From positions 124,001-188,000 of the forward strand of contig PBIO01000017.1 of the NCBI GenBank assembly GCA_002720865.1: a DNA stretch of 64,000 nt. The letters are read 5' to 3'. The translations under genes were made by a program, and so were the position numbers. The notes under the pieces are model-generated. The model worked only from the letters and a program-made list of their open reading frames with translations. It was not told where the DNA came from and ran no database searches. This DNA comes from Halobacteriovorax sp. GTDB lineage: Bacteria; Bdellovibrionota; Bacteriovoracia; Bacteriovoracales; Bacteriovoracaceae. Shown in pieces: positions 51,029-60,207 of this stretch. Numbering within the stretch: the first letter of the stretch is position 1; the number at the start of each line of letters is the position of its first letter.

Positions 51029-51304
51029 CTATCTTTTATAAATGGAAAAGGCCAAGACCGGATCAAACTTTTTGATCAACTTCTCTAAAGTATCAACCAG
51101 CTGGTCGATATAGGCCTTAACGACCAAAAAGATAGCGAAGCTTGAAACTTGCTGTAGTAATTCTTGTAAGATTCCCTCAAGAATAGAAAGTACAGGTTCT
51201 AAACCCAACTTTTTAACTAAAGCATCAAAAAAGTTCTGAGCTTCTTCTACGTCTTGCCCTTTATTTGTGACCACGTACAATGGATTCTTAGTTTTAGTGT
51301 TCAT
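51029..51304 (-). CDS. Small helical protein downstream of parA
   Basis: A 91-residue protein. The middle (about residues 40-70) is a mostly hydrophobic, amphipathic helical stretch (LEGILQELLQQVSSF and AIFLVVKAYIDQLV), which could lie on a membrane. ATG 51304 lies 11 bases inside the parA end; a start three codons upstream is also possible. The overlap with parA suggests a functional link. No family is recognised. Confidence 0.6.
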   Translation of the reverse strand: MNTKTKNPLYVVTNKGQDVEEAQNFFDALVKKLGLEPVLSILEGILQELLQQVSSFAIFLVVKAYIDQLVDTLEKLIKKFDPVLAFSIYKR

Positions 51305-52166
51305 AATGCTCATTCCAGTTGGTTATAATTTTGGCCAAATTGGTAAACTGACCCTGAAGATGTTTAAAGTCTTTTCCTTTAAAATCATAAACTGATTTTT
51401 TCTGGGCCTGGCTTTTTACAAGTTGTGCACGGTTAAAAAATGGCTCAACCGTTGTCCCCTCTGCCATTTCAGAGCTTATTTTTTCTAAGTCTAGAACTTC
51501 CTGTTTTCTTCGAAGATCAACCATATTTGGAATATGGGCCAATACATCAGGGGCTCTACTAATTCCCATATCAGCAACGTCTTCTAATGCCTCGTAAAAA
51601 TGAGTTAGTCCTTTTCTTGAAAACTCGTCTGGTTTAAAAGGAATCATAACTCCTTGACTAGCGCATAGAATATTAACGACCAATAATCCTAGGGTCGGGG
51701 GACAATCGACAATAATATAATCATATTCATTTAAAAGATTATTTTTTTCGAAGAATTTTTTAAGGATTGTTTGTCTTGGAGCTGATATCCCTGCCACGGT
51801 TAACTCAAATCCCGAAAGCTCTTGTCCTGAAGGTAGAAGGTCTACTTTCCCTTTTGTTACTAGAACATCGCCTATTAATGAGGAAACATGTAGCGGAGCG
51901 AGTTCTCTAATACTGTTAATTAATAAATGATGAAGATGATGTTTACCTGTTCGCTCGCAACCAAATAAAAGAGAGAGATTACTTTGGGGATCGAGGTCTA
52001 GACAAAGAACCTTATGACCTTCTTCACTTAAAGCAAAGGCCGTATTATAGGCCATTGTCGTTTTTCCAACCCCTCCTTTTTGATTTAAAAAAGCAATGAC
52101 CTTACCTTTTGGTTCAACAGCAGGTTCAGATATTTTTGGTTTAAGCCTATTGAAAAGTGAAGCCAT
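51294..52166 (-). CDS. ParA-type ATPase without a neighbouring parB
   Basis: A 290-residue protein of the ParA/Soj group. It has deviant Walker A FLNQKGGVGKTTMAYN near residue 28, LDLDPQSNLSLLFG near 56 and the Walker B region YIIVDCPPTLG near 144. An N-terminal tail of about 20 residues contains several Pro. These ATPases position chromosomes, plasmids or cell-pole complexes. Adjacent genes are a small helical protein and FecR. No parB or parS-like cluster is in the window, so chromosome segregation is not indicated. Confidence 0.85.
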   Translation of the reverse strand: MASLFNRLKPKISEPAVEPKGKVIAFLNQKGGVGKTTMAYNTAFALSEEGHKVLCLDLDPQSNLSLLFGCERTGKHHLHHLLINSIRELAPLHVSSLIGDVLVTKGKVDLLPSGQELSGFELTVAGISAPRQTILKKFFEKNNLLNEYDYIIVDCPPTLGLLVVNILCASQGVMIPFKPDEFSRKGLTHFYEALEDVADMGISRAPDVLAHIPNMVDLRRKQEVLDLEKISSEMAEGTTVEPFFNRAQLVKSQAQKKSVYDFKGKDFKHLQGQFTNLAKIITNWNEHYEH

Positions 52167-52272: not shown

Positions 52273-55200
52273 TTATTCTTGATATCCGCTAATGGGAACA
52301 ACACATCTGAAGCCCACGTCGATCATGGCGCTAGATTTTTCCGTCTCGGTAAAGTTAGTCTGTGCTGTAGATGACTGCGTTTCCTGAGCATCCCCACTTA
52401 TAAAGGCAAAGACCATGGCACTTGCACCAGCGTCGCTATTTATGGCCTGAACGATACTGGCCGGCGTAGAGGTCACATTAGACCCATCAAATCTAAGCTC
52501 GACTTGAATTTGTCCAGTCCCAGCATTGGCAACCGCTATATTTTCATCTGTTCTTGCACCATTTTGTACAAACTCTAGGTTTGGAGTAACGGCCCCTCGT
52601 TGAACAATTGTCACATCGCCCACAGTTATTCTACTTTTAATTGAATCGGTACAAGGTAATAACTCCATATTATAAACCCCAGCTCCAACTCCATCGAGGT
52701 AAGAGCCCCCTGTCGCCACACCACCGCAGCCAGAAGTTTCACCAGCAATTGTGGCTGAATCAATTGTTATAATATCGTCTCTTAGCTGGGTCGATGTTAT
52801 TCCGTTGGTTGGGCCAATTTCAAATAAGAAATCAAGAATATTAGAGGCCGTAAAAAGAGAATTAAATTGTGTCACTACCGGAAGACCCATAGGGATTATA
52901 TATCTACCAGCATTATTTCTTTCATCTTCAAGTGACCATGAATCTATATTACCATCACAGGCATTATCTGAATTTGAATCCACACATGGTCCAACTCTTC
53001 CGTCTAGAACATAAGTTTGAAACCACTGATCTGTTCCATCACCATAGCGCATATCATTTGTTGTGGCGGCAAGAGCATCTGTTTCACCATTTATTCTGGC
53101 CTTACAATTAGCCGCTCCAAATCTTAGGTCAGCACTAAAGTCTACGGCCGTCCAAGCAGTACCGCTATTTGTATTTTCATAACAAGTTCTGGCCGCCGAG
53201 TCCCAAAAAAGAGTACCTTGTCCCGCTGTTACAGTACCGTTTGGGGTAGCTGTTCCAATACATCTTGTGTCCCCTGTATCACAACCATCTCTATCGTAAC
53301 CACAATGGGCCGGTGTCCACTCCGTTGAATCATCTGCATTTATCCAGCAAATACTATTACCAGTATCTCTAAAGTAAGTTCCAATTGGAGCTGTAACAGA
53401 GCCATTGGGATCTGAAGCAGCAGTACATTGACTATCTGTCGTATCACAAGCGTTTACTGAAAATGGACAGTTAACGACTGTGTCACGGCAATTAAATCTT
53501 TCCGCCGTCCATTCAGCCACGTTACCAACATGATCCTGAACTCCAAATCTTGAGATACATTGATTCGTTTCATCACTTCCCGTCATCATACTTCTAATAT
53601 TAGAAGTTGCTGTACCTGGAAGCGTATAAAAAGTATTTGAATCTGGAACTGGTACATCAGAATAATTAGTAGAAAGTCCACTTGCCTGGGAGCTATTACA
53701 TTTAGCTGAACTATTTAAAGATAGACCCGTTTCTAGTGTGGCAATAGCTGAATCAGTATTATTTTCCGTATCCCATAGACCATAGGCCATTTGCTCTTTT
53801 CTCGTTGGAAGAACTTTGGCAAGTCTTTGACCTGTTGTCACTAAGGCCCAAGTCGTTGCGCCATCTGTATTTTGATAGCAGCTAAGACCGGTTGTATCGT
53901 AGTAAGTACTTCCTAGCTTTGCCACCATACCTGGAGCACCAGCGCCGACACAATCAGAACCTGCACAGGCTCCTTTAGAAACATTACAACCTGAAAGTGA
54001 CCAGTCAGATCCATTAACATTATAAAAACAGTTGGTGCTATCAATATCAAAGTAAACACTTCCGATCGGGGCCGTGACACCGCCGGCATTAGGATCTGGA
54101 TTTCCAGAACAATCAGAACCACTACATAGTCCCTTAGTAAATTCACAGTTCGAAGACGTCGCTGCAGTATTAAACGAAAGACCTAAAACAGAAGGGGCGA
54201 CCTCTGACGCGCAAAAATTATGAGCGTTTGTCTGGGTAACATTAACAATTGGAGGAAGATGAGCTTTCACGTAATCAGTAATTGAAGTGTTTCCATCAAT
54301 CTCAGACCATGTTGTACCACCGCCGGAGCTTACATAACATTTACCTACTGATCTTGCGTAATAAATAACTCCGTTTGCTCCCCCATCAATTGCATCAGTT
54401 GTTGGATCATTAATTCCAACACAGGCTCCATCTGAAGTTCCCGTACAAGTAGGTGCAGAATTATAATTACATCCAGCTTCGTAACGATCAACTAGCATAT
54501 CGTATTTAATATCATAGTAATTAGAATCCGGTAGTGGAACTGGCGAAGCAATTGTTCGTCTAGGCTCGGCTCCTAAATCTCCCGGACCTTCGTAACGACA
54601 ACGATAGTTATTATTCGGATCTATTGTAGTTGAATGAATTTTTTCACACATCGTCTTATTCACCATCCAGCGGTGAACAAACACCATATTATCAGGTGGA
54701 GCAGTAACCCTTAGAGTTTTAAAGACTTCGTCCGTATTGGTTGATAGAGTTTGGTCCGTTCCATTATTAGGTTGAATAATTGGCCTAACTTCATAGTAGT
54801 AAACTGTTCCCGGTACTGGTGGAAACATGGAGTTGATAGCATTATCAGTAAAAGTTTTTACATTATCGTCTATGGCCTCACGGTTAAGTCTCTGAGTGTA
54901 ATCGAACTGCTCATTAGCAAGCCTTCTATAAACTTCATAATTGATAATACTTTCACCGGCAGGAACAACATCAAAATCTTCCCACTCGATAGTCACTTCT
55001 GCCGTAGCATTATAAGTTTCCCAATCAGCTGCCCCTGTACCTGTGGCAATAGAACGATAGCAAAGACTATTCGTGGCATCCCAGAAGTACTGATTTAAAG
55101 CTGTAGCATTTATGGTTGGAGCTGAACCGCTAATACAGCTAGCCACATCTGTTCCTGCATCTAGGGTCTTACAATTGATATTTAAATTTGTCGGTGTAAC

Positions 55201-57891
55201 CGCACAGTAAGTAGAAACTTCTGTCCAAGTAGTTCCGGCCGTGGCCGCATGATAACACTTATCTGTATCTTTATTATAGTAAAGTACGTCGTCAGCATCA
55301 GCAGTAACAGTTCCGTTTGGATCTGATTGTCCAATAGTCGCCTTAGTACAAGATTGGCCACTATTACATTTATCTAAATTATAAGAACAGACGTTTTTAT
55401 TAGTATCCTTTAATTCATCAAATTTATTAAACTTAGGTCCAACTGCTGTAATATTTTTCCAACCATTATGAATGGCTGAATAAGGCTGTACCGTTACAGC
55501 AAAAGTATAAGTTGAAGTTGCGCCTGATAAATCCTCTAGTGTGATTGTAATATTTGCTGTTCCAACATTACCAACTTGTGGCGTGATTTCTAATCTAAAA
55601 TCACCATCCCCTTCACTGGTTGCACCGCCAAAGGCAGATCCTGGCATGGCCCCAACTGTTTGTGCTGTATCATTAAAGAAAACAGAGATATTTCCGCCGG
55701 GTACAAGAATGGCGTTATCGCTGGTGATAGAGGTTACACCAAGAGTATCTGTATCTTCGGAACCAGCGCCCCCTTCATCAACTCCGATATTATCAACAAC
55801 AATAGTTCCCTCGCCTTCATTCACAACAATATCTTGAATATAAGAAGGCTCAGTAGCGTTATCTACAATTTCCCAATCTGCTGACGTTGTTCCCGTAGTT
55901 TTCCAACAAACTCCATCAGAGTTATTAAAATAGATAATTGGTTTTGCCGCTGTATGAGTCGAAGGAGTTATGGCATTAATTGGATCTGTTGTGCCAAGAC
56001 ATCCATTCCCACCACAGGCGTTTAAATCAGAATAAGTACTATAGTTACAGATAAGAGGTTTATCATTTGTTCCCGTGATATCTATATATACCGTTTGTGT
56101 AATTGACGTACTAACTCCATCAGAGGCCGTATAAGTAAATGAATCGGCATAAGGATTGGTAGCATTCCCTCCGGCCATGGCCGTACTGGCCTGGGCAACT
56201 ACGGGAGTGGCTCCAAGAACGGTGACCACAACAAGATTTTTAGCAACCGGATGAGCGGCAATAGCCGTTCCGACATGAGTTGGTAGTGTGGATGCTCCAT
56301 CATTATCTACATAGATAGTAATATCTTCACCATTTAAAGGATCAATTATGATTTGCGGATTTGTTCCAATATTGGGTGCATCTAAAATTGTAATATCAAT
56401 ATTATTTCCTTCAGGTCCACCTATGATTGAATCTATTTGAAGGTCGCCTTGAAGATACTGGGCAAAAGTTGGGGTAGCTGAATTTTGTAAGTTTCCACTA
56501 TTGGCCGTATAAGAGCAAGAGAACACGCCGGCCGTAGTTGTACAACCGGAAAGAACTCCACCTGTTGGTGAACTAGAAACTGCATAAGTTAAGGAAGCTG
56601 GTGCTTCATCCCAACCTTGATCGATAGAAAAACTTATGGCCCCTGAAGGAGCTGGTCCAGCGGGCTCTAAAAAATCAACCGTTGGCTGTTGTCCGTCAAC
56701 AGTTGAGTGAGCGATTGGTCTATCATCAACACTTGCTAAGGTAATATTAAAAGTTTTCGCTGTAGAAGATGCCGTGGCACCAGTTGTGTCGTGAATTTGA
56801 TAACTAACTACAGGCGTGCTTGTAGCATCGACATTTTCTTTTGGTCTAACAGGTACATCACAAAGAAGTGCTCCTAAAGTAGAAGTACAAGTACAGTTAC
56901 CGGTTTGAAATACATCACTAACACTTGGGTCAATAGTACATGTAAAAGTGTCAGTAAATTCGGCCGAATCTAGCTCAGTTCCGGTCAGTTGCCCATTAGC
57001 GGCATTAAAGCTAAAGGCAGTATCTTCTGTAAAACTTCCAGAAACTGAACTCGAATCTGCCGTTGGCGCATCCGCATTAAGTGCACCTTGATTTACCGTT
57101 ACAGTAATAGTCGAGTAGTTAGTATCACCAGTAGCAACCTGAACCGAGTCCCTAACTCCGATAACAATTGTATCACCGCTTGCAAGTTCATCATCTGCAT
57201 CAGGTATATAAGTAAAAATACCGGTTGATGAAACGATGCTCGCATTAGATTTTGGATCAGTTAAAATTGTAAATTCAAGAGGAGTATTGTTTTCATTAGC
57301 TGCTCCCCCATGTAAATCGGAGAAGCTTCCAGCGGTTGTTACCTGTCCTGCGACAACCGTTAAATCTAAACTTGTAGTTGCGACAGTAGAATCTTCGTCC
57401 ACCGTGATCGCAGCGTTAGTTGTTACTGGTGTGTCGTTGACTGAAGAAATAGTTACCGATACATATTTTGTGTTACTAACACCATCGTCGTCTGTAACTG
57501 TGTATTTGAAGTCTGCCGGTCCATTATAGTCTGGAGTGGGAGTTAGGATAACTTGGCAGACACCGCCAGTACAAGAACAGAGCGGAAGTGGGTTTGGTAA
57601 ATAAAGATTTGTATCAAGATCAGTAACTGAACAAGAAAAAGCGTTGTCGCTATTAACATCAGAATAAGTTAAGGTAATGGCCGTGGCCGCTGAATCTTCG
57701 ACTAATGAAAATGAAGCTAGAGTTGCAACTGGTGGGCTTTGGGTAACGACGGCACCTTGACATGAACGAGATACCGTATCGAAGACCTGCCCAGACGCAC
57801 AGTCTGGGTTCTTTGTTTTCTTAGATCCTCCGCCTAAACAGCCGACCAAAAAAACCAACATCAATGTGGTTATAATTCCTATTCTCTTCAT
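52273..57891 (-). CDS. Giant lipoprotein: cadherin-like repeats, Cys modules and a C-terminal FGE-sulfatase-like domain
   Basis: A 1872-residue lipoprotein (lipobox FLVGC, Cys18). The N-terminal half has tandem Ig/cadherin-like repeats with DYNGPADFKYTVTDDDGV and VNDTPV motifs. From about residue 640 on there are eight copies of a Cys module of roughly 45-60 residues. Each reads C..., a C near a GxxDPNG-like segment, then VTAPIGTxFxD and CYxNxDxxTxW. The C-terminal part also has VGNVAEWT near 1460 and ends GFRCVVPISG, both typical of SUMF1/FGE-sulfatase domains. It is probably surface-exposed; binding or adhesion is likely. No frameshift is seen. Confidence 0.8.
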   Translation of the reverse strand: MKRIGIITTLMLVFLVGCLGGGSKKTKNPDCASGQVFDTVSRSCQGAVVTQSPPVATLASFSLVEDSAATAITLTYSDVNSDNAFSCSVTDLDTNLYLPNPLPLCSCTGGVCQVILTPTPDYNGPADFKYTVTDDDGVSNTKYVSVTISSVNDTPVTTNAAITVDEDSTVATTSLDLTVVAGQVTTAGSFSDLHGGAANENNTPLEFTILTDPKSNASIVSSTGIFTYIPDADDELASGDTIVIGVRDSVQVATGDTNYSTITVTVNQGALNADAPTADSSSVSGSFTEDTAFSFNAANGQLTGTELDSAEFTDTFTCTIDPSVSDVFQTGNCTCTSTLGALLCDVPVRPKENVDATSTPVVSYQIHDTTGATASSTAKTFNITLASVDDRPIAHSTVDGQQPTVDFLEPAGPAPSGAISFSIDQGWDEAPASLTYAVSSSPTGGVLSGCTTTAGVFSCSYTANSGNLQNSATPTFAQYLQGDLQIDSIIGGPEGNNIDITILDAPNIGTNPQIIIDPLNGEDITIYVDNDGASTLPTHVGTAIAAHPVAKNLVVVTVLGATPVVAQASTAMAGGNATNPYADSFTYTASDGVSTSITQTVYIDITGTNDKPLICNYSTYSDLNACGGNGCLGTTDPINAITPSTHTAAKPIIYFNNSDGVCWKTTGTTSADWEIVDNATEPSYIQDIVVNEGEGTIVVDNIGVDEGGAGSEDTDTLGVTSITSDNAILVPGGNISVFFNDTAQTVGAMPGSAFGGATSEGDGDFRLEITPQVGNVGTANITITLEDLSGATSTYTFAVTVQPYSAIHNGWKNITAVGPKFNKFDELKDTNKNVCSYNLDKCNSGQSCTKATIGQSDPNGTVTADADDVLYYNKDTDKCYHAATAGTTWTEVSTYCAVTPTNLNINCKTLDAGTDVASCISGSAPTINATALNQYFWDATNSLCYRSIATGTGAADWETYNATAEVTIEWEDFDVVPAGESIINYEVYRRLANEQFDYTQRLNREAIDDNVKTFTDNAINSMFPPVPGTVYYYEVRPIIQPNNGTDQTLSTNTDEVFKTLRVTAPPDNMVFVHRWMVNKTMCEKIHSTTIDPNNNYRCRYEGPGDLGAEPRRTIASPVPLPDSNYYDIKYDMLVDRYEAGCNYNSAPTCTGTSDGACVGINDPTTDAIDGGANGVIYYARSVGKCYVSSGGGTTWSEIDGNTSITDYVKAHLPPIVNVTQTNAHNFCASEVAPSVLGLSFNTAATSSNCEFTKGLCSGSDCSGNPDPNAGGVTAPIGSVYFDIDSTNCFYNVNGSDWSLSGCNVSKGACAGSDCVGAGAPGMVAKLGSTYYDTTGLSCYQNTDGATTWALVTTGQRLAKVLPTRKEQMAYGLWDTENNTDSAIATLETGLSLNSSAKCNSSQASGLSTNYSDVPVPDSNTFYTLPGTATSNIRSMMTGSDETNQCISRFGVQDHVGNVAEWTAERFNCRDTVVNCPFSVNACDTTDSQCTAASDPNGSVTAPIGTYFRDTGNSICWINADDSTEWTPAHCGYDRDGCDTGDTRCIGTATPNGTVTAGQGTLFWDSAARTCYENTNSGTAWTAVDFSADLRFGAANCKARINGETDALAATTNDMRYGDGTDQWFQTYVLDGRVGPCVDSNSDNACDGNIDSWSLEDERNNAGRYIIPMGLPVVTQFNSLFTASNILDFLFEIGPTNGITSTQLRDDIITIDSATIAGETSGCGGVATGGSYLDGVGAGVYNMELLPCTDSIKSRITVGDVTIVQRGAVTPNLEFVQNGARTDENIAVANAGTGQIQVELRFDGSNVTSTPASIVQAINSDAGASAMVFAFISGDAQETQSSTAQTNFTETEKSSAMIDVGFRCVVPISGYQE

Positions 57892-58122: not shown

Positions 58123-60207
58123 TTATCGTCCAATTATATTAATTGACCAATCTACAAAGGTACCTGTGTGTGCAGGGGCTGAATCGAGGTCAGAATTTCC
58201 AGAGTCACTGCCAAGACCATCAATAACTTTTAGGGTCCAATTTCCATTTGAAGACTCTCCGTAAAAAGCATTAGAAAGAAAAATTGCTCCGCTATGATCA
58301 TCAACCCAATCAGGTGTTGCCCCATCTAACCCAATAAGAAGTGAATTATTAATATTTAAAATAATACTTTTTGTTCCACTAGGAGAAGTAAGTTCTATTC
58401 CTAAGTCTCCAGGTCTTGGGTGAGTAATATTAAGCTTTATCTGCACTGCCTCAACTGTATAAGCTTGAGTAACATTAATTGAGTTTGAAAGTCCTGTCGG
58501 ACTACTATCCGGTATGGCCGTATTTACTGTACTTGTTGATAAAGAAAATGCCGGGTCAGTTTCACTTGGCATTCCAGTTAAAAAAGAGCTGTAATTTTTT
58601 GCCATTGTTACAGCGGCATCTGCATCGATTTGACCAAATCCATAGTAATTATGAAAATTGTATCCCGCTGCATTTTGAATCCAACCAAGTGAATAAGTAT
58701 GCCCAATCATATCGTCATTATCGACAGCTACATAAGGACCATTATCGTAGTCAAAGCCAGCATCAACTACTGTATCTGAAGAAGCCGCATCTATTTTTTC
58801 AGCGGTAGCTGCTAAGATATGTTTTATATCTCTCCATGTAAGATTGGCATTTGCTTCCATTAGTAGTGCAACTAAGCCACTTACCATTGGTGCGGCAGAG
58901 GATGTTCCGTTAAAACTTTGAGTATAATTACAGTCCGTATTTCCGTCTCCACCAATTTGAAAATTAAAACCAGTTAGACCAAATCTTGCGTATCCATCAA
59001 GGCAGCCGGCTGTGTCAGTTGTCATGATGGCAGGGTTTGTTTTTCCAAACTCTCCACCAGGAGCAGAAACCCAAAGATTGGCGCCTGCGGATGAATATGA
59101 CGACTTAACACCCAGTGCATTGGTAGCACCGACAACAATATACCAAGGAAGTTCATCCTCGGACCCAAGATTTGAGCTATGACTAAAGCACATAAGCCCT
59201 AAGAAAAAGCTACCATTACTAAAATCACATTCTTGAAAGGAGTTACCGGCACTTTTAACGTATACTGATCCCTTCCCTCCACGCTGAGTACTTAAACCAT
59301 ATTTAACTTGATCGATATAAGTGCTGTCAGCATTTAGAGCTGTAGGATAAAAGCTAGATCCATAACTATAATTATAAACATCTAAGTCCCCACTAGCCTG
59401 ATCTAAATGAACCGCTGTCGATTGAGTCACTCCAGTTCCAAGATAGTTTAGGCCAACTAGTTTTGCTTCAGGTGCAACTCCCCTTGATCCAATTCCATTC
59501 CAGCCCACGGCCGCAATAATACCGGCCACGGAAGTTCCATGGTCACCACCTGTTGCAACTCCAGGGTCGCCAAAATAAGGAGCGCTTGTCTTATAGTCTT
59601 TATTAAGGGGATTTAAAACGTTAACAAATAAATCCGGATGATCAATATCAAGTCCCGTATCACTAACACCAACTTTAATATCTTTTCCAAAATTTCCGGT
59701 TCTTAAAACCTCGTCTAAATTAATATCTTCACCGACAGTTCCACCATTATTTGCAAAATTAGACTGACCGGTATTTCTAATATGCCAAGCATTTTCCTTT
59801 AGAGGATCGCCATAAACTTGAACAGAAAAGGGCCCTAGTTCAGTAAATTTAATTCCCTTGTAGGCCGTAATTCTAATATTATTTGTGGTTCCAGATTCTC
59901 TTGGTATTCCAGTCAAGGCCCCTGTACTTTCATGAATACTAAGCCAGCCCGGTAATCCCGTGGCAGAAAACCGCAGACCAGAATCATGCAGAGTTGGCGA
60001 CCAAGAGTAAAGGAGGTCTTGATTCGTTACTACAGTTGGTACTCCACTAATAAAAGGAGTTTCACTGGGAATCAAAGTTACACTTCCGCCTTTGCTTATT
60101 TTTCCTGCATTTGTCTTATCCCCAGGGGTTGGAACGCAGGAGCCTAGTGATGTCATCAACAACACTAAACCAAGGTAAATATTAAAGTGCTTACGCATCT
60201 TACTCAT
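58123..60207 (-). CDS. Subtilisin-family protease lipoprotein with a P domain
   Basis: A 694-residue protein. The lipoprotein signal is LMTSLGSC, with Cys at about 24. A putative Ig domain follows (RFSATGLPGWLSIHESTGALTG). The S8 protease domain has catalytic Asp in VGVSDTGLDIDHPD, His in GGDHGTSVAGI and Ser in FNGTSSAAPMVSGL. The C-terminal P/proprotein-convertase-like domain contains ITHPRPGDLGIELTSPSGT. All three catalytic residues are present. The gene is preceded by a sigma-28-like motif. Surface proteolysis is the likely role, of prey proteins if the host is predatory. Confidence 0.92.
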   Translation of the reverse strand: MSKMRKHFNIYLGLVLLMTSLGSCVPTPGDKTNAGKISKGGSVTLIPSETPFISGVPTVVTNQDLLYSWSPTLHDSGLRFSATGLPGWLSIHESTGALTGIPRESGTTNNIRITAYKGIKFTELGPFSVQVYGDPLKENAWHIRNTGQSNFANNGGTVGEDINLDEVLRTGNFGKDIKVGVSDTGLDIDHPDLFVNVLNPLNKDYKTSAPYFGDPGVATGGDHGTSVAGIIAAVGWNGIGSRGVAPEAKLVGLNYLGTGVTQSTAVHLDQASGDLDVYNYSYGSSFYPTALNADSTYIDQVKYGLSTQRGGKGSVYVKSAGNSFQECDFSNGSFFLGLMCFSHSSNLGSEDELPWYIVVGATNALGVKSSYSSAGANLWVSAPGGEFGKTNPAIMTTDTAGCLDGYARFGLTGFNFQIGGDGNTDCNYTQSFNGTSSAAPMVSGLVALLMEANANLTWRDIKHILAATAEKIDAASSDTVVDAGFDYDNGPYVAVDNDDMIGHTYSLGWIQNAAGYNFHNYYGFGQIDADAAVTMAKNYSSFLTGMPSETDPAFSLSTSTVNTAIPDSSPTGLSNSINVTQAYTVEAVQIKLNITHPRPGDLGIELTSPSGTKSIILNINNSLLIGLDGATPDWVDDHSGAIFLSNAFYGESSNGNWTLKVIDGLGSDSGNSDLDSAPAHTGTFVDWSINIIGR

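Follow-up and report, generated by a model that had tools for sequence, protein, structure and literature searches.

Insertion of a four-cysteine domain into a probable binding lipoprotein of the Bacteriovoracales

A single gene of a marine predatory bacterium (Bacteriovoracales) encodes an 1872-residue lipoprotein with eight copies of a small four-cysteine unit, three of them ahead of an FGE-sulfatase-like head and the other five within it, in three of its loops. The gene was read as an open-reading frame from the window, the whole 64,000-nucleotide stretch of DNA analyzed here. In relatives, the number of units in this gene runs from one to seven, indicating that one gene for a probable binding protein has been growing by insertion. 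The product is probably a cell-envelope binding protein with a pseudo-FGE head that was expanded by domain insertion, with predicted disulfides, a predicted exposed position and a putative ligand that may lie on prey.

The protein has the signal peptide and lipobox of a bacterial lipoprotein (MKRIGIITTLMLVFLVG/C, LVG/C at residues 15-18), followed in order by an Ig/cadherin stalk, an Fn3-like domain, and the FGE-sulfatase-like head (Table 1). A lipobox-like start was present in 45 of 54 homologs under a strict pattern. Ig/cadherin repeats were matched in the N-terminal part of the protein by Pfam and NCBIfam, and the stalk of one single-unit homolog matched Ca2+-stabilised adhesin repeats at 117 bits against a cut-off of 50.

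Table 1 Features of the host gene and its downstream neighbor, in window coordinates
Feature	Residues	Position	Strand	Basis
Host gene, 1872-aa lipoprotein		52273..57891	(-)	sequence, homologs
Signal peptide and lipobox (LVG/C)	1-18	57838..57891	(-)	sequence; homolog starts
Ig/cadherin-like stalk (Big_9, tandem-95 repeats)	~52-612	56056..57738	(-)	profile matches
Second inserted module, copy a, within Ig-like domain	~485-572	56176..56439	(-)	
U1, stalk site	614-677	55861..56052	(-)	site map, hold-out HMM
U2, Fn3 site, pair member 1	834-893	55213..55392	(-)	site map, hold-out HMM
U3, Fn3 site, pair member 2	895-961	55009..55209	(-)	site map, hold-out HMM
Fn3-like domain (putative), hosts U2-U3	~806-1060	54712..55476	(-)	sequence pattern and alignments; no library match in window protein
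FGE-sulfatase-like head, without catalytic Cys	~1063-1869	52285..54705	(-)	profiles, alignments, model
U4, head site 1, universal in homologs, pLDDT ~94	1140-1199	54295..54474	(-)	
U5, head site 2	1248-1299	53995..54150	(-)	site map, hold-out HMM
U6, head site 2	1301-1352	53836..53991	(-)	site map, hold-out HMM
U7, head site 3 after VGNVAEWT	1474-1527	53311..53472	(-)	site map, hold-out HMM
U8, head site 3	1529-1584	53140..53307	(-)	site map, hold-out HMM
Second inserted module, copy b, just before GFRC	~1755-1845	52357..52629	(-)	
ParA-family ATPase, conserved downstream neighbor		51294..52166	(-)	profile match, neighborhood comparison

A sequence-only reading of this protein had counted eight units, and exactly eight units of ~55 residues, each with four cysteines, were confirmed. 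The unit profile was iterated from units collected in homologs, and a hold-out HMM of 92 units from other genera, built without the window's genus, recovered all eight at E-values from 1.4e-8 to 2.3e-15. As controls, 1000 shuffled copies gave a best E-value of 0.007, with nothing comparable to the real units, and no other open-reading frame of the window scored below 0.5. In an alignment of 50 units, the four cysteines were invariant and G, P, and W nearly so, with the general scheme C-x-[YF]-[ST]...C...C-x-G...P.....YY....xCY......W. The DPNG..VTAPIGT motif previously proposed as the common scheme occurs in some units only. Pairwise amino acid identity among the window units is ~25-40%.

None of Pfam, PHROGs, and NCBIfam gave a consistent match for the 50 units, and the best match of the unit in the PDB (E = 0.042) was scattered over weak pieces. 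When ten units were run singly against PHROGs, one weak unrelated match and nothing else was returned. A phage tail-fibre origin of the unit was considered and rejected, as the weak single PHROG matches pointing to it were not reproduced; a tblastn search of phage records found no units, and no plasmid relatives were found. In this genome, the units are carried by the host gene only. Judged from its sequence, the four-cysteine unit is an undescribed domain that merits a family entry of its own.

The insertion sites were placed by aligning the host sequence after unit removal, using automatic alignments that are accurate to a few residues. U1 lies at the edge of an Ig-like domain and U2-U3 inside the Fn3-like domain ahead of its W-strand, while in the head U4 lies directly behind the DRYEA stretch, U5-U6 behind NAHNFC, and U7-U8 behind VGNVAEWT. 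These unit-free alignments support the original view that the modules are threaded into an FGE-like fold, some before and some inside it. A second repeated module of ~85 residues, unrelated to the four-cysteine unit and missed in that first reading, is inserted in the same manner, with two copies in the window protein (Table 1). Most multi-unit homologs carry one to five copies of it, and in several a copy lies between two Fn3-site units, giving a unit-module-unit arrangement at one site. Within this genome, the second module was likewise found in the host gene only. It had no confident family match, and its identification as Pfam phage sheath domain II, resting on a single weak match (E = 0.011), was rejected.

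Within the family, 70 of 129 genomes carry units. Named unit-bearing records belong to the Bacteriovoracales (Halobacteriovorax and Bacteriovorax), and most of the relatives are metagenome bins for which predation is unproven. A few unit matches were found in the phylum's other families, mostly one per genome and at the same head site where this was read; single-unit homologs were present in Bdellovibrionaceae and Oligoflexia bins. Across 62 homologs, copy number is not constant but ranges from 1 to 8, with the window protein at the maximum. The unit at head site 1 was present in 61 of these 62, the exception being a truncated contig, and the remaining sites are lineage-specific in the site map of the same homologs. 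When the head was placed in a tree with its units removed, the earliest branches were one-unit proteins. The stalk unit and the Fn3 pair arise in the Bacteriovoracales clade; head site 2 became occupied in two lineages, and head site 3 in two or more. The window's genus is richest in insertions, with eight units and two second modules, compared to five units in a congener (L118) that has no U5 or U6 and a single unit in place of U7/U8.

The host gene is orthologous across these relatives. Its ParA/QueA/Tgt neighborhood is conserved, and because the one-unit orthologs L163 and L166 lie in the same neighborhood, the series records the growth of one gene. ParA lies downstream of the host gene in 29 of the 43 multi-unit hosts with enough flanking sequence. 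Some more distant one-unit homologs lie outside this neighborhood and may be paralogs. The genes adjoining the host gene are ParA and tRNA-modification genes, with no known adhesion genes alongside, a setting that weighs against the binding-protein reading.

Both the units and the host are under strong purifying selection when compared with the near relative L117 (94% identical), with dN/dS values of 0.034 for the units and 0.020 for the host that are rough because synonymous sites are near saturation. We consider it possible, although only tentatively, that the unit and the second module act as insertion cassettes, mostly restricted to a single orthologous gene. They would have spread stepwise through the stalk and head loops across predatory Bacteriovoracales, and binding to prey or other surfaces would have been tuned by inserting domains and not by mutation or the growth of tandem repeats. 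The units might instead be structural spacers or stabilisers only, bracing loops and extending the stalk without contacting a ligand, their number drifting upward with little selection on it. This would agree with a copy number that varies without obvious pattern, with the presence of several unit sites in the stalk, and with head site 1 as the sole conserved unit site; we nevertheless regard it as unlikely, given that the added units retain all four cysteines, that they evolve under purifying selection, with dN/dS of 0.006-0.076 wherever it could be measured, and that those of the window's genus crowd the head and not the stalk.

The sequence-only reading had also proposed a variable protein whose units are independent copies that could recombine, and neither part of this proposal was supported. 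Units group by site, the resemblance between same-site units of different species (0.337) exceeding that between different-site units within one protein (0.282). No usable DNA repeats were found between units, and GC content is equal in units and host. Together with the low dN/dS, these results indicate that the units are old, individually conserved domains that are neither recombining nor hypervariable. A mobile DNA element or recombining repeat was rejected, with no DNA similarity between units and none elsewhere in the genome. A diversity-generating retroelement was also rejected, as a search of the genome for RVT_1 found no reverse transcriptase and the last ~500 bases of the host gene matched only themselves, leaving no template repeat. 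A recombining surface antigen, in which units swap sites or switch number within strains, would account for copy numbers of 5 and 8 in different species of the genus, but it is mostly refuted at the species level and very improbable in view of the site-wise grouping, the strong purifying selection, and the lack of DNA repeats, of a retroelement, and of donor copies elsewhere.

The head is FGE-like in its motifs and its model. Against the Pfam FGE-sulfatase family (PF03781), the window protein itself fell below the cut-off (18.6 vs 23.3 bits), which weighs against the reading, whereas homologs scored 44.5, 30.7, and 25.9 bits, above that cut-off. The core motifs GNVxEW (VGNVAEW) and GFR(C) are retained in order and were modelled as one fold, and a unit-free head profile found FGEs as its best PDB matches and aligned to the human SUMF1 structures. 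The human SUMF1 stretch GGSYMCHRSYCYRYRC contains the catalytic cysteine pair (MCHRSYC) and aligns to GGSYxSGxxAGxY, which has no cysteine. That the head retains FGE-type or EgtB-type enzyme activity, with the units as accessories, is therefore highly implausible despite the retained VGNVAEW and GFRC motifs, as both catalytic cysteine positions are non-cysteine in every homolog inspected.

An AlphaFold2 model of the head, built on 49 natural relatives, had a pTM of 0.75. The FGE core and U4 were modelled with confidence (pLDDT ~90-94), whereas U5-U8 were of low confidence (pLDDT ~35-70). In the model, U4 forms a three-stranded meander (residues 1176-1179, 1184-1188, and 1195-1197) ending in the conserved W, and U6-U8 show the same strand pattern at low confidence. 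FGE domains have been described as one subtype of the CLec fold, with a sensor role proposed for those of retroelement targets (PMC10907252), and a prey-recognition fibre of Bdellovibrio ends in a CLec fold (PMC10769870). From the FGE-fold matches, the missing catalytic cysteines, the model, these CLec precedents, and the adhesin-repeat homolog, we infer a non-enzymatic binding protein, most likely an adhesin or sensor that is anchored to the cell and bears a pseudo-FGE (C-type-lectin-like) head. The surface or binding role suggested at the outset thus fits the lipobox, the Ig and Ca2+-stabilised adhesin-type stalk, and the head without catalytic cysteines, and the 'variable' label attached to it is not supported.

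In such a protein, an Ig/Fn3 stalk would carry a head of the FGE (C-type-lectin-like) fold. This head no longer has the FGE active site and is most likely a ligand-binding domain, with prey or some other surface as a plausible target. Each unit would fold as a small domain built on a hairpin sheet of three strands, with two predicted disulfides. The copy at head site 1 is ancestral and belongs to the fold itself, and as the order evolved, more units and the unrelated second module were added in frame. The additions lie in loops that connect strands of the stalk, Fn3, and head domains, and the window's genus has the most of them. They probably make the exposed surface larger, stiffer, and more resistant to proteases and alter its contact face. 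A role in predation would follow if prey is the target.

Several described systems resemble parts of this arrangement. The head shares motif order and the C-type-lectin-like fold with FGE/SUMF1 (PF03781), whose Pfam cut-off homologs exceed, but it differs in having no catalytic cysteine pair, extra domains in three loops, and a fusion to a lipoprotein stalk. As in the retroelement targets (PMC10907252) and the Bdellovibrio MAT fibre (PMC10769870), an FGE/CLec domain ends a longer protein in which recognition is used or proposed. Unlike in these systems, no reverse transcriptase or template repeat was found, the host is a lipoprotein with an Ig stalk and not recognisably a trimeric MAT fibre, and its relatives differ by inserted domains and not by hypermutation. 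The closest described case of repeated insertion that we found among open-licence papers is PERCAL in bacterial animal-peroxidase domains (PMC3396595), where motif insertions are likewise repeated and variable in number within one bacterial domain. PERCAL, however, is a short Gly/Asp calcium motif, whereas here a ~55-residue four-cysteine domain and an ~85-residue module occupy sites across several domains. Stalk repeats of the Ca2+-stabilised, tandem-95, and VCBS-type Ig-repeat adhesins (NF033510, NF012211, PF17963) occur in the window protein and its homologs, but those adhesins grow by tandem repetition of whole domains and the host protein by insertion within domains. Within one orthologous gene, living relatives still preserve intermediate states of a bacterial recognition-type protein that has grown as two domain families were inserted in frame into folds already present. 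Should the head bind prey, the number of units could be tested as a factor in the prey range of predators that are studied as biocontrol agents.

Other observations concern the relatives and neighbors of the gene. One contig (L089, contig C169 of G111) encodes a protein very close to that of the window's genus but sits in a genome assigned to another genus, which reflects either a binning error or a recent transfer. FGE-head proteins occur in adjacent pairs at L178, L169, and L138, and the 881-residue protein at L178 has an apparent extra divergent unit near head site 3, below threshold. A 3168-residue open frame with stalk-like Ig repeats and no units is present at L003-L005 (G000 C11:370781-374776). 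The ParA-family ATPase that is adjacent downstream in most multi-unit relatives could position the host protein or share its operon. Just upstream of the host gene, a secreted-looking subtilase with a P-domain and an Ig domain is encoded at 58123-60207, and it is kept beside the host gene in L118, L120, L125, L128, L133, and L135.
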